Assembly: GCA_007280345.1 (NCBI GenBank)
Contig: QYQD01000074.1
Location: forward strand, 1-38,831
DNA from: Deltaproteobacteria bacterium
GTDB taxonomy: Bacteria; Desulfobacterota; QYQD01
Reading direction: 5' to 3'
Length of the DNA: 38,831 bases
A program made the translations under genes and the position numbers. The notes beneath the pieces are model-generated. The model was not told where the DNA came from. It was given only the letters and a program-made list of their open reading frames with translations, and searched no databases. Shown one piece after another: positions 1-6,588 of the stretch; within the stretch, counting starts at the first letter, position 1; each line of letters opens with the position of its first letter.

Positions 1-1
1 A

Positions 2-589
2 CACCTTGTGCGGGGGCATCGCAAACGCAAACCCAAGGGGATAGGCAGAAGGGAGCGTAAAACCAAGATTCCCAACCGTATCCCAATAGAGGCACGGCCT
101 CAGTCTGTGGAAACCCGGCATCGGTTTGGGCACTGGGAAGGGGACAGTCTGGTATCGAGGAGGAGCCTTGCGGCTCTGAACTCACTGGTGGAGCGCAAAA
201 GCAGGCTTCTGCTTCTCACAAGGCTTGAGAGGAAGTCGGCAGAGCTGACCACGGATGCCGTGATACTGAGACTTCAGGAACTCCCTGAGAAAGCAAGACG
301 CACGCTGACGCTGGACAACGGGACCGAGAATGCACAGCATGAGGCTATCACAGAGGCCATAGGCATGCAGTGCTATTTCGCCCGTCCTTATGCTTCGTGG
401 CAGAGGGGAACCAACGAAAGCGTCAATGGTCTGGTCAGGCGGTACTTCCCAAAGGGTACTGACTTTAGTAAGATAACGGATGAACAGGTGGCAATGGTCG
501 AATCAATCATTAACAACAGGCCCAGAAAATGCCTGGGCTACAAAACACCGCTTGAGGTCGCTTCTACTTTTGTTGCACTTCGACCTTGA
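2..589 (+). CDS. IS30-family transposase, C-terminal part (cut by window edge)
   Basis: This is the catalytic C-terminal part of a DDE transposase. The frame is open to the left edge of the window, so the GTG at position 8 is probably an internal valine and the N-terminal helix-turn-helix lies outside. An Arg/Lys-rich stretch leads into the IS30-type catalytic core: GHWEGD (first Asp), TLDNGTE (second Asp) and the NESVNGLVRRYFPKGTDF region carrying the catalytic Glu. The end (NNRPRKCLGYKTPLEV) is typical of the family. The stop lies in a stretch around 571-600 that probably holds the right terminal inverted repeat of the element, as in other IS30 relatives; the left end is not available to confirm this. 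All three catalytic acids are present, so nothing visible suggests decay. Confidence 0.9.
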   Translation, partial: HLVRGHRKRKPKGIGRRERKTKIPNRIPIEARPQSVETRHRFGHWEGDSLVSRRSLAALNSLVERKSRLLLLTRLERKSAELTTDAVILRLQELPEKARRTLTLDNGTENAQHEAITEAIGMQCYFARPYASWQRGTNESVNGLVRRYFPKGTDFSKITDEQVAMVESIINNRPRKCLGYKTPLEVASTFVALRP

Positions 590-3463: not shown

Positions 3464-3537
3464 TGGGGGATCGTCCAGCGGCAGGACTGCAGACTCTGAA
3501 TCTGTCTACCGAGGTTCGAATCCTCGTCCCCCAGCCA
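3464..3537 (+). tRNA. tRNA-Gln (anticodon CUG)
   Basis: The sequence folds as a full cloverleaf. A 7-bp acceptor stem pairs TGGGGGA (3464-3470) with TCCCCCA (3527-3533), followed by discriminator G and an encoded CCA (3535-3537). The D-arm stem is GTCC/GGAC, the anticodon stem is GCAGA/TCTGT with loop CTCTGAA giving anticodon CTG (reads CAG, glutamine), and the T-arm contains GAGGTTCGAATCCTC. It lies alone between the two-component genes and the activase pair. No clear terminator hairpin follows. Confidence 0.96.
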
Positions 3538-3647: not shown

Positions 3648-4388
3648 ATGATTAGAAATATTGGAATAGTGGGTATGCCGCCGAGGGAGGTCATGTTCCG
3701 CCTTAAAGGGGAAGGCGCAAGGATTTATGATCTTGATGCCCTGCATGTAAAACCTGACCTTGAGATTACTGCTTCGTATATACCACGGGTTTATTGTGCC
3801 ATCCTGCGCACGGTCTTGACCAATGCCAAAAAGATGTCTTTAGATGCCATCTATATAGATGTAGGCGAGGGAAAGTGCAGCGGGGCCCTTTATATTGCTG
3901 AGATATTAAAAGTAGAACTTAATATCCCGATTATTCAGACACGTAATGAAGATAAGCTGCGTTTCGGCAATCCTGTCTGTGAGAGCGTCCTGCCCTTGGT
4001 AGAAAAAATGGAGTTGATAACGCAGAGTGTGTTGGAGCCGGAAGCAATGAAAAATGATATGGTTCGATGTGAGCCAGTAGCTGGATTCTGGGGCGTACCG
4101 CCGAGGGACTTCTCTATTCTATCCCTGTTCCCACCGCGCACCCATGTCTTTGGCTGGACAAGGTGTATGGAGAATAAGACCCCGGCTGATGCAGCGTTAG
4201 AAAAAGTGGTCCACCCTGATGTTCCTACCGTATTCTTTGCCCAGTCTTTTTGTCAGAAGACGGCCTTAACCTATTATCTGGCCAGAAGACATCCCTGTGG
4301 ACTCTATGTGGATGCTGATGTATATATGGGGCATAGCACCAAGTCAAAAGTTCAGGCATTCCTTGAATTAAATGGAGCAATAGATTGA
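3648..4388 (+). CDS. Cysteine-rich protein of unknown function, partner of a BcrA/HgdC-type activase
   Basis: I do not recognise this 246-residue soluble protein. It has seven cysteines (about residues 50, 77, 111, 141, 173, 202, 217), enough to hold an iron-sulfur cluster, though they are spread and form no CxxC motif. A G-x-PPR-(E/D) motif appears twice (about 9-14 and 149-154), with a further FPPR at 161-164, suggesting two related halves. The C-terminal third has strong conserved-looking blocks (FGWTRCMENKTP, FFAQSFCQKTALTYYLARR, VDADVYMGHSTKSK). A GGAAAGAAG-like ribosome site precedes the ATG. The stop overlaps the TTG start of the activase gene, so the two should be co-translated. By position it could be the protein the activase acts on, taking the place of a 2-hydroxyacyl-CoA dehydratase-type partner; this is inference. 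Confidence 0.6.
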   Translation: MIRNIGIVGMPPREVMFRLKGEGARIYDLDALHVKPDLEITASYIPRVYCAILRTVLTNAKKMSLDAIYIDVGEGKCSGALYIAEILKVELNIPIIQTRNEDKLRFGNPVCESVLPLVEKMELITQSVLEPEAMKNDMVRCEPVAGFWGVPPRDFSILSLFPPRTHVFGWTRCMENKTPADAALEKVVHPDVPTVFFAQSFCQKTALTYYLARRHPCGLYVDADVYMGHSTKSKVQAFLELNGAID

Positions 4389-5029
4389 TATTAGGTGATT
4401 TTGGCACATCATATACAAAATTATGGGATATAGAGAAAGAATCTGTCCCACGCATTGTGCGCAGTATGGATATAGCTGGTGGCCTGCGTACTACGTTATC
4501 TACCGGCCATAATGGGGAGCGCTTCGGCGAACGCTACGTTAATGAGCTTACGGCCCTGGCTCGCGGCGCGAAGAGGCTGATTAAAGAGGATGATTTCGTC
4601 ATCCTGGATTGCGGCAGCCGGGACCTGAAATTCGTAAGGTTCAGCGGGGATAAGGTCAGGGATACGGGGTGGAATGCCGAGTGCGGGGCCTCCCTTGGAT
4701 TTACCATAGAATTACTGGAGAGGTATTATGACCTCGATCACCGCCGGATGTCCGTGCCATCTACCCACTTACCGGTAACCTGCGGGGTGCTGGGTCTCAG
4801 CCACATCTTTGATGCCATTATTCAGGGCGCGCGGCCGGAAGAGGCGGTGGCCTCTTTCATTAAAGGCATCGCCCTAAACGCCTACCGTTTTGCCGGATCC
4901 CCACCCAAGCTTTACCTCTCCGGAGGCCTTTCTGAAAATCCTGTCTTTGTCAAAAGCATGCCCTGTGAAGTGGTTGTTTTAGGACGATTTGTTCTACTTG
5001 AAGGGCTGCGCTATATAGCCTCTATTTAG
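4385..5029 (+). CDS. BcrAD/BadFG/HgdC-family ATPase (dehydratase-activase-like)
   Basis: This is a 214-residue minimal member of the ASKHA-fold activase family. Relatives hydrolyse ATP to push a low-potential electron from a bridging [4Fe-4S] cluster into a partner enzyme. Visible family features are a phosphate-1 loop (LGDFGTSYTKL, 3-13), a linker like the family's TGYGR segment (TGHNGERF, 40-47), phosphate-2 (ILDCGSRDLKFVRF, 73-86), two cysteines at the usual cluster-ligand positions (Cys100 in NAECGASLGF, Cys133 in VTCGVLGLSH) and a final LSGGLSENPVF (178-188). It is shorter than the usual roughly 260 residues. No dehydratase or benzoyl-CoA reductase subunits are nearby; the only partner is the preceding gene, joined by a TTGA overlap. 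Family is well supported, substrate unknown. Confidence 0.8.
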   Translation: MILGDFGTSYTKLWDIEKESVPRIVRSMDIAGGLRTTLSTGHNGERFGERYVNELTALARGAKRLIKEDDFVILDCGSRDLKFVRFSGDKVRDTGWNAECGASLGFTIELLERYYDLDHRRMSVPSTHLPVTCGVLGLSHIFDAIIQGARPEEAVASFIKGIALNAYRFAGSPPKLYLSGGLSENPVFVKSMPCEVVVLGRFVLLEGLRYIASI

Positions 5030-5082: not shown

Positions 5083-6588
5083 GTGTTCAATACGGTGCGA
5101 GAAGTGGAAGATTTTAATAAGCTGACAGAGCAGAGACAAAAAAAGGCTGGTGACCTGAAAGAAATGGGAGTTCTCCTTTATCCCAATAATTTCATGGTCA
5201 AGGACAGGGTAGGGGACATAATATGTAAATATGCCCAGGTTAATGATCTGCCCGGCGAGGATCAGAAGTTCGTTATAGCCGGCCGGATGATTGCCCTCAG
5301 GGACTTTGGAAAGAGCGTCTTTACCCATGTCCAGGACGGGAATGGAAAGATCCAGGTCTATTTGCGGAAGGATGTCCTGGGTAGTGAAAGTTATGAGGTA
5401 TGTAAGCGTCTGGATATCGGCGATATTGTGGGTATTGAAGGGACACTTTTCAGGACTAAAACCGGCGAATTGACGATTCTGACACAGAAACTAAACCTTT
5501 TGACCAAATCACTCCGTCCTTTACCGGAGAAGTTCCATGGCCTTACGGACGTGGAAACGCGGTATCGCCAGCGGTATGTCGATTTAATGGTCAATCCCGG
5601 GGTACGGGAAGTCTTTTTGAAACGCATCCGGATAATCCAGGAAGTGAGAAATTTTCTTACTGAAAGGGGTTTTCTGGAGGTTGAGACGCCGATGATGCAG
5701 CCCATCCCCGGTGGGGCCACGGCCAAACCCTTTAAGACCTATCATAATGCCCTCGATATGGAGCTGTACCTGAGAATTGCCCCGGAATTATATCTGAAAC
5801 GCCTGGTCGTGGGCGGGTTTGAACGGGTTTTTGAAATTAATCGCAACTTTCGCAATGAGGGCGTCTCTATCCAGCACAACCCTGAATTCACCATGCTGGA
5901 ATTTTATCAGGCCTATGCCACCTATGAAGATCTGATGGCCCTTACCGAAGAGATGTTTTTCATGCTGGCCGGGAAGATTTGTGGTCAGCCGGTCATTTCT
6001 TACCAGGATTATGAGATAGACTTCACCCCTCCGTGGAAGAGGTATGCCCTGAAGGATGCCCTGGTGCAAGTCGGCGGGTTGCAGGACGAGCTTCTCCATG
6101 ATGAGGCAGGGGCCAGGGCCTATGCCGTTTCCCTGGGTATTAAGCTGGGTGAAAAAGACGGCTTCGGCAAGACGCTCGTAAAGCTCTTTGATCATCTGGT
6201 GGAGCCGAAGCTGATCCAACCAACCTTTATCTATGCCTATCCTCTGGAGGTCTCTCCGCTTTCCCGAAAAAATGAGGCAGATAACGAGGTAGTAGATCGT
6301 TTTGAACTGTTTATCGCCGGCCGGGAGATGGCCAATGCCTTTTCCGAGTTGAATGACCCGGTTGACCAAAGGGAGCGTTTGGTTAAACAGATACTGAACA
6401 GAGACACGGCAGATGAGGACGAGGAAATCGTCCCTATTCTGGACGAGGATTTTCTCCGGGCCCTGGAGTACGGCATGCCCCCTGCGGCCGGGGAGGGGAT
6501 CGGGATAGACCGGCTGGTTATGCTTCTTACGGATTCACTTTCTATCCGGGACGTAATTTTATTCCCGCATTTGCGTCCTGAGCGTTAA
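5083..6588 (+). CDS. lysS: Lysyl-tRNA synthetase, class II
   Basis: The 501-residue enzyme charges tRNA-Lys in the cytoplasm. An OB-fold anticodon-binding domain spans about residues 60-150 (FVIAGRMIALRDFGKSVFTH). The class II catalytic core follows with motif 1 around FLEVETPMMQPIPGGA, motif 2 as FRNEGVSIQHNPEFTMLE and motif 3 as GIGIDRLVMLLTDSLSIRD, ending LFPHLRPE. Length and motifs are full. The GTG at 5083 is taken as start; a GTG at 5095 is an alternative and neither has a strong ribosome site. It begins the gene run that leads into lolC/E, an order common in deltaproteobacteria. Confidence 0.96.
   Translation: MFNTVREVEDFNKLTEQRQKKAGDLKEMGVLLYPNNFMVKDRVGDIICKYAQVNDLPGEDQKFVIAGRMIALRDFGKSVFTHVQDGNGKIQVYLRKDVLGSESYEVCKRLDIGDIVGIEGTLFRTKTGELTILTQKLNLLTKSLRPLPEKFHGLTDVETRYRQRYVDLMVNPGVREVFLKRIRIIQEVRNFLTERGFLEVETPMMQPIPGGATAKPFKTYHNALDMELYLRIAPELYLKRLVVGGFERVFEINRNFRNEGVSIQHNPEFTMLEFYQAYATYEDLMALTEEMFFMLAGKICGQPVISYQDYEIDFTPPWKRYALKDALVQVGGLQDELLHDEAGARAYAVSLGIKLGEKDGFGKTLVKLFDHLVEPKLIQPTFIYAYPLEVSPLSRKNEADNEVVDRFELFIAGREMANAFSELNDPVDQRERLVKQILNRDTADEDEEIVPILDEDFLRALEYGMPPAAGEGIGIDRLVMLLTDSLSIRDVILFPHLRPER

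Follow-up and report, generated by a model that had tools for sequence, protein, structure and literature searches.

To our knowledge, few ATP-driven electron pumps of the superfamily of 2-hydroxyacyl-CoA dehydratases, benzoyl-CoA reductases and the double-cubane cluster protein (DCCP) have known roles, and what DCCP itself does in the cell is an open matter. The mechanism, ATP-driven electron transfer, is established for the DCCP reductase (DCCP-R), HgdC and BcrAD (PMC11971306), and the potentials accessible to such pumps lie far below that of ferredoxin and are theoretically close to -1 V (PMC11971306). In the benzoyl-CoA reductase BzdNO, an N-terminal helix and an intermediate three-helix domain line the CoA channel and close the active-site groove (PMC11971306). 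Cys95, Cys128 and Cys380 of BzdO are the three ligands of its catalytic [4Fe-4S]-OH2 cluster, and this single cluster sits at the position of the proximal sub-cluster in the double cubane of DCCP; Cys263 of BzdN, in the ligand numbering of the same source, is a distal double-cubane ligand (PMC11971306).

Here we analyzed two genes in a window of 38,831 nucleotides, from a contig of a Deltaproteobacteria bacterium. They represent a conserved gene pair of sulfur-metabolising bacteria, which is nearly universal in one order and sometimes is the only system with the fold of the 2-hydroxyacyl-CoA dehydratases (HGD-D) in a genome. The pair as such is outside the family libraries, with both proteins below the curated family cut-offs. 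A literature search, limited in that most subscription papers lay outside its reach, returned nothing on exactly this pair.

Two overlapping genes

The TTG start of the second gene overlaps the stop of the first, the two genes sharing 4 nt (TTGA), and both ORFs lie at the place given in the preliminary description, which was made from the letters of the window (Table 1). Both ORFs differ from their same-genus copies mainly at third codon positions, and we therefore regard them as real genes. A tRNA-Gln gene (3464-3537) lies upstream of the pair and lysS (at 5083) downstream of it. At the edge of the window is an integrase-core (rve) transposase fragment, IS30-like (8-589). Further downstream, positions 11334-37919 hold what we take, from reading the sequences, to be a lipid A/LPS core biosynthesis run, with LpxD, LpxA, an LpxI-like protein, LpxB, MsbA, KdtA, LpxK and heptosyltransferases, followed by glycosyltransferases.

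Table 1. Features of the gene pair. Nucleotide positions are those of the window; L101 is the locus with a canonical HGD-D protein that served as reference for the cysteine alignment (hhalign); AF2, AlphaFold2 model.
Feature	Location	Strand	Description
Gene 1 (P0001)	3648..4388	+	246-aa miniature HGD-D-fold Fe-S protein, ATG start
Gene 2 (P0002)	4385..5029	+	214-aa compact ASKHA activase, TTG start
Gene 1, Cys50 codon	3795..3797	+	aligns with L101 Cys147; by position BzdN Cys73 / BzdO Cys95
Gene 1, Cys77 codon	3876..3878	+	aligns with L101 Cys177; by position BzdN Cys100 / BzdO Cys128
Gene 1, Cys173 codon	4164..4166	+	in GWTRCMENKTP, behind strand 2 of domain C; topological equivalent of L101 Cys343 / BzdN Cys263
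Gene 1, Cys202 codon	4251..4253	+	aligns with L101 Cys409; by position BzdN Cys327 / BzdO Cys380
Gene 2, Cys100 codon	4682..4684	+	ECGASxG in place of KCAAGTG; expected cluster ligand
Gene 2, Cys133 codon	4781..4783	+	TCGVLGxSH in place of CTVFAESE; second expected cluster ligand
Gene 1, domain N	residues about 1-112		strands 4-8, 25-28, 67-71, 95-98 (AF2)
Gene 1, linker helix	residues 117-129		sole helix joining the domains (AF2)
Gene 1, domain C	residues about 143-246		strands 145-149, 165-168, 194-198, 218-222 (AF2)

The first gene encodes a miniature of the HGD-D fold

The preliminary description had reported seven cysteines and repeated PPR(E/D) motifs in a first protein that it could not place. 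The cysteine count is exact (Cys50, 77, 111, 141, 173, 202 and 217), and the motif indeed occurs twice, at residues 11-14 and 151-154. Across the gene-1 family, only the PP of the first motif is invariant, and the second is invariant as FWGVPPRDF in the alignment A1. The protein itself has, in miniature, the HGD-D fold shared by 2-hydroxyacyl-CoA dehydratases, benzoyl-CoA reductases and DCCP, and three lines of evidence now place it there. The profile search that had been proposed for the 246-residue protein was successful in part: 28 of 77 homologs match Pfam HGD-D (PF06050) weakly, with a best E of 9.3e-5, but the protein itself, at 12.9 bits, is below the curated cut-off of 28.4. When the gene-1 family was compared by hhalign with 21 canonical HGD-D proteins of the phylum, the alignment reached E 5e-6 over 239 columns, approximately the full length; the unrelated control, the gene-1 family against the gene-2 family, gave E 0.35. 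Moreover, the AlphaFold2 model (pLDDT 86, pTM 0.83) shows two alpha/beta domains, each with four strands, as expected for the HGD-D / BCR-HAD fold. In a Foldseek search of the PDB, chains of 3-methylbenzoyl-CoA reductase came out on top (E 4e-5 and 1.9e-4), DCCP was second (E 8e-5 and 1.9e-3) and BzdO was also found (E 1.2e-3), all of them at probability 1.00, while the unrelated matches interleaved with them or following them, of similar length, had about 0.5 or less. A sequence search of the PDB, with the single protein and with the profile, gave no match, and a scan of NCBIfam yielded no credible family and no sequence-level link to any named marker protein. The module had also been described as one without a dehydratase; in fact, the gene-1 protein is itself a reduced partner of the dehydratase/benzoyl-CoA reductase/DCCP fold.

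The gene-1 model lacks the CoA-binding bundle, which consists of the N-terminal helix and the three-helix intermediate domain, and this loss argues against CoA esters as the substrate. The groove that is left open in the model fits a small substrate or the docking of a client protein. As for the relation between the two domains, their modelled topology suggests pseudo-symmetry. An internal-repeat reading was set aside, because hhalign of the N half against the C half aligned only the GxxGxPPR(E/D) loop (E 0.013).

The second gene encodes a deep-branching activase

The gene-2 protein branches deeply among the activases, and DCCP-R is its nearest relative of solved structure. The earlier label "BcrA/HgdC-type" holds at the level of the fold and as a weak family match, but not at the curated cut-offs: the protein scores 22.4 bits against Pfam BcrAD_BadFG (PF01869, cut-off 31.5) and 37.6 bits (E 1.6e-9) against TIGR00241 (CoA_E_activ, cut-off 125.4). 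TIGR00241 is matched weakly by 74 of 75 homologs as well. The model (pLDDT 91) has the ASKHA fold, and its best Foldseek match is DCCP-R (E 7e-15, TM 0.79-0.80), followed by MbdQ/P, HadI and HgdC. Both activase cluster cysteines, already pointed out in the preliminary description, are present as Cys100 and Cys133, which are invariant in the homologs together with the Gly-rich phosphate motifs. By analogy with HgdC and DCCP-R, these two residues would be ligands of a cluster common to a homodimer. The canonical motifs GGQD and KCAAGTG are replaced by GSRD and ECGASxG in gene 2 and its relatives. In a small FastTree tree, built from 14 proteins of the gene-2 family and 12 canonical activases, this family is monophyletic (local support 0.996), and its branch is 1.8 substitutions per site from the sampled canonical activases.

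Conserved cysteines and the predicted cluster of the gene-1 protein

Cys50, Cys77, Cys173 and Cys202 of gene 1 are invariant in 86 sequences, and Cys111 and Cys141 are kept in 79 and 80 of them, respectively. In the canonical HGD-D set three cysteines are near-universal (23-24 of 26 sequences, a few of which are mis-picked ORFs) and three are variable. By hhalign, Cys50, Cys77 and Cys202 fall on the three near-universal ones, and the cysteines of the proximal cluster are accordingly present in gene 1. Cys173 lies in the context THVFGWTRC, to be compared with AVIVGEESC of L101 Cys343, each after strand 2 of domain C. This equivalence was drawn by topology, hhalign being 6 columns off, and according to the model Cys173 may be the equivalent of a fourth double-cubane ligand. 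The positions matching BzdN Cys36 and Cys293 are not cysteines in gene 1, so the six-ligand pattern of DCCP was not found and no standard [8Fe-9S] double cubane is expected. We infer that gene 1 keeps four of the six double-cubane ligands, with Cys173 counted by topology. Its protein would then hold one cubane at the proximal site, bound either by four cysteines or by three with an open iron.

The divergent f39 lineage (L008, L097, L131) has SVPCWD in place of the second PPRD motif, with an extra cysteine of the domain-C loop at the residue equivalent to Pro152, and Cys141 was lost alongside this gain. The cysteine of SVPCWD is possibly an alternative cluster ligand in these proteins.

Distribution of the pair and its neighbours

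In bacterial and archaeal genomes, one scan returned 80 loci, the relatives numbering 127 in all; homologs are present in 80 or more other genome records. The 80 loci are nearly all labelled as Deltaproteobacteria, Desulfobulbaceae, Desulfobulbus, Desulfocapsa or simply Proteobacteria. In all 87 of the 87 loci where both genes are readable, the activase is directly downstream on the same strand, the genes overlapping by 1-20 nt in 61 loci and lying 0-30 nt apart in 18. The distribution was sampled in depth in one phylum, where 28 of the 395 genomes searched with a profile have gene 1. In one order of this phylum (that of genome G194, which appears to be Desulfobulbales), 105 of 116 genomes carry it, or 83 of 89 among the good ones, and nearly always in one copy. 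The pair is also present in a 1.7-Mb genome of the same order with an estimated completeness of 100%. Gene 2 is absent too from nine of the 11 members of the order without gene 1; in the other two, its first base is base 1 or base 2 of a contig, and an assembly break has probably removed gene 1. The two genes are thus gained and lost together. Conserved co-occurrence and adjacency, put forward as a check in the preliminary description, were both confirmed, and the opposite case of two genes that rarely occur together was not found.

The same-strand gene directly upstream of gene 1 is similar in 67 of the 80 loci and is usual in Desulfobulbales; in the sole annotated case (L051, 6919-8001), it encodes an LptF/LptG-family permease and overlaps gene 1 by one base. 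In the genus of the window the pair sits before lysS-lolC-lolD-bamA, and in f39 the neighbours are metallo-beta-lactamase-fold genes or others. Neighbours are therefore unrelated across the three lineages compared, and no conserved neighbour among them names a substrate. The permease and the lysS-lolC-lolD-bamA contexts are both envelope-related, with no gene in common. No plasmid location of the pair was found.

Some irregular reading frames were seen among the relatives. At G467:C1:2562816-2563546, G420:C61:12110-12839 and in G415:C80, gene 1 is broken into two frames that overlap; one of these genomes is a single-contig assembly, and an assembly frameshift, a pseudogene or something else is possible. 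Selenocysteine was ruled out for L139 and L149, which had been flagged for TGA, as this TGA is the normal stop. One TGA was also flagged inside a canonical HGD-D match (G055:C1:109229-110251), where it may be selenocysteine, a terminal stop or an error.

Carriers of the pair differ in their other HGD-D systems. On a different contig (G000:C172, L101:1177-3305), the genome of the window carries a canonical DCCP/DCCP-R-like pair, consisting of a 458-aa HGD-D protein with the six-Cys pattern and a 251-aa activase that overlaps its stop. No canonical pair is over the cut-off in the same-genus genomes G001 and G003 (97-98% completeness). In the carriers G018, G118, G217, G260, G280 and G338, no further HGD-D protein scores above the cut-off; four of them, G118, G260, G280 and G338, are also without an activase above the Pfam cut-off. 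In these six carriers, gene 1 is therefore the only candidate HGD-D-fold partner for gene 2.

Possible function of the pair

We consider that the pair is probably a minimal two-component ATP-driven reductase, similar to DCCP-R:DCCP and with a non-CoA acceptor. Both folds, the kinship with DCCP/BCR and DCCP-R, the conserved cysteines and the obligate pairing are computational results, whereas we infer the presence and type of the clusters, the homodimerisation, the docking and the ATP-driven electron transfer as follows. The ASKHA ATPase of gene 2 would dimerise around one [4Fe-4S] cluster, with two cysteines per subunit, and would be reduced by a ferredoxin-type donor. The reduced dimer would dock on the gene-1 protein, and ATP binding and hydrolysis would push single electrons, at a very low potential below that of the donor, into the gene-1 cluster. 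This cluster would be held between the two alpha/beta domains by Cys50, Cys77 and Cys202, with Cys173 as a fourth ligand or a near neighbour, and would deliver electrons to a substrate other than a CoA ester, either a small molecule or a cluster or cofactor of another protein. The suggestion of the preliminary description that these genes form an ATP-driven low-potential electron system survives as the best reading, with the cysteine-rich protein as the presumed electron-receiving partner, but one part of it has to be changed since a dehydratase-fold partner is present. Two observations count against a reductase. With the GSRD and ECGASxG motifs the coupling of the ATPase may differ, and gene 1 has four of the six ligands only and is far below the HGD-D cut-off.

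The same ATP-driven electron transfer step could also serve a different acceptor. Gene 1 would then be an adaptor whose cluster, super-reduced and partly exposed, is offered to a client metalloprotein for the reductive activation or repair of the latter. We regard this as a tentative alternative, less probable than the reductase. The groove-closing helix bundle of BzdNO is missing in the gene-1 model, and the cluster should hence be more accessible. A single copy, near-universal presence in the order and unrelated neighbours in three lineages are more housekeeping-like than catabolic, and a maintenance role is attractive from this distribution and from the absence of a conserved neighbourhood. 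DsrA is present in 20 of 20 tested carriers; however, it is also present in 17 of 36 sampled genomes of the phylum that lack the pair, as well as in 9 of the 11 genomes of the order in which gene 1 was not found, and no client was identified. Acetyl-CoA synthase CdhC was rejected as an obligate client, because it is present in 16 of 20 carriers and missing from four, and a link to dissimilatory sulfite reduction in general was rejected as well, dsrA being common in genomes without the pair. A so far undescribed, order-wide maintenance system, in which an ATP-driven pump charges a bundle-less DCCP-like adaptor that activates or repairs a client metalloprotein, is likewise possible but rather doubtful. 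If it is true, the HGD-D fold would also act as an electron-delivery adaptor, in addition to catalysing reactions of CoA esters or small molecules.

We also considered two further explanations. The divergent GSRD motif in place of GGQD and the long branch of the gene-2 family could indicate a redox sensor or regulatory ASKHA module, whose ATPase has lost its electron-transfer function, but the invariance of both cluster cysteines and of the Gly-rich phosphate motifs in gene 2, together with the Fe-S ligand triad kept by its partner, counts against this reading, and we regard a sensor as very unlikely. Sulfur transfer by a TudS-like gene-1 protein, with the open iron of a [4Fe-4S] cluster taking the substrate sulfur and the ATPase being ancillary, seems highly improbable to us. 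TudS belongs to the same superfamily, and the descriptions of it give a single domain, a catalytic cluster of the [4Fe-4S]/[4Fe-5S] type and activity as a desulfidase; a superfamily triad of cysteines is kept in gene 1; yet gene 1 is always paired with an activase, of which the TudS descriptions examined make no mention, and it has both alpha/beta domains and a fourth invariant cysteine. The ATP-driven reductase with a non-CoA acceptor remains our preferred reading. As a minimal and genetically isolated pair, the two genes are a clean test case for the function of this fold without CoA binding.

Comparison with known systems

In gene order, with an HGD-D gene followed by an activase, the pair is like DCCP:DCCP-R (PDB 7yyl/7yzm), as is the canonical L101 pair. 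DCCP-R is the best structural match of gene 2, and DCCP ranks second among the structural matches of gene 1. However, the DCCP chains in 7yyl/7yzm have 420-422 aa versus 246 aa in gene 1, which is without the helical domain and has four of the six cluster ligands, and gene 2 differs from DCCP-R in carrying GSRD and ECGASxG. With BzdO/MbdO of the class I benzoyl-CoA reductases, gene 1 shares the two alpha/beta domains and the cysteine triad of the catalytic cluster, but it has neither the CoA-binding helices nor a second, BzdN-type subunit, and there is one activase gene here instead of the two of BzdPQ/MbdPQ. Gene 2 shares the activase fold and the cluster cysteines with HadI/HgdC (4eht, 1hux), which also have an HGD-D-type partner, whereas gene 1, unlike HadBC/HgdAB, is a single short chain without the CoA-binding part. 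TudS/DUF523, the 4-thiouridine desulfidase, resembles gene 1 in that it is a relative of reduced size within this superfamily and has one Fe-S cluster, that of gene 1 being predicted. One domain is described for TudS, in contrast to the two alpha/beta domains, the fourth invariant cysteine and the obligate activase of gene 1.
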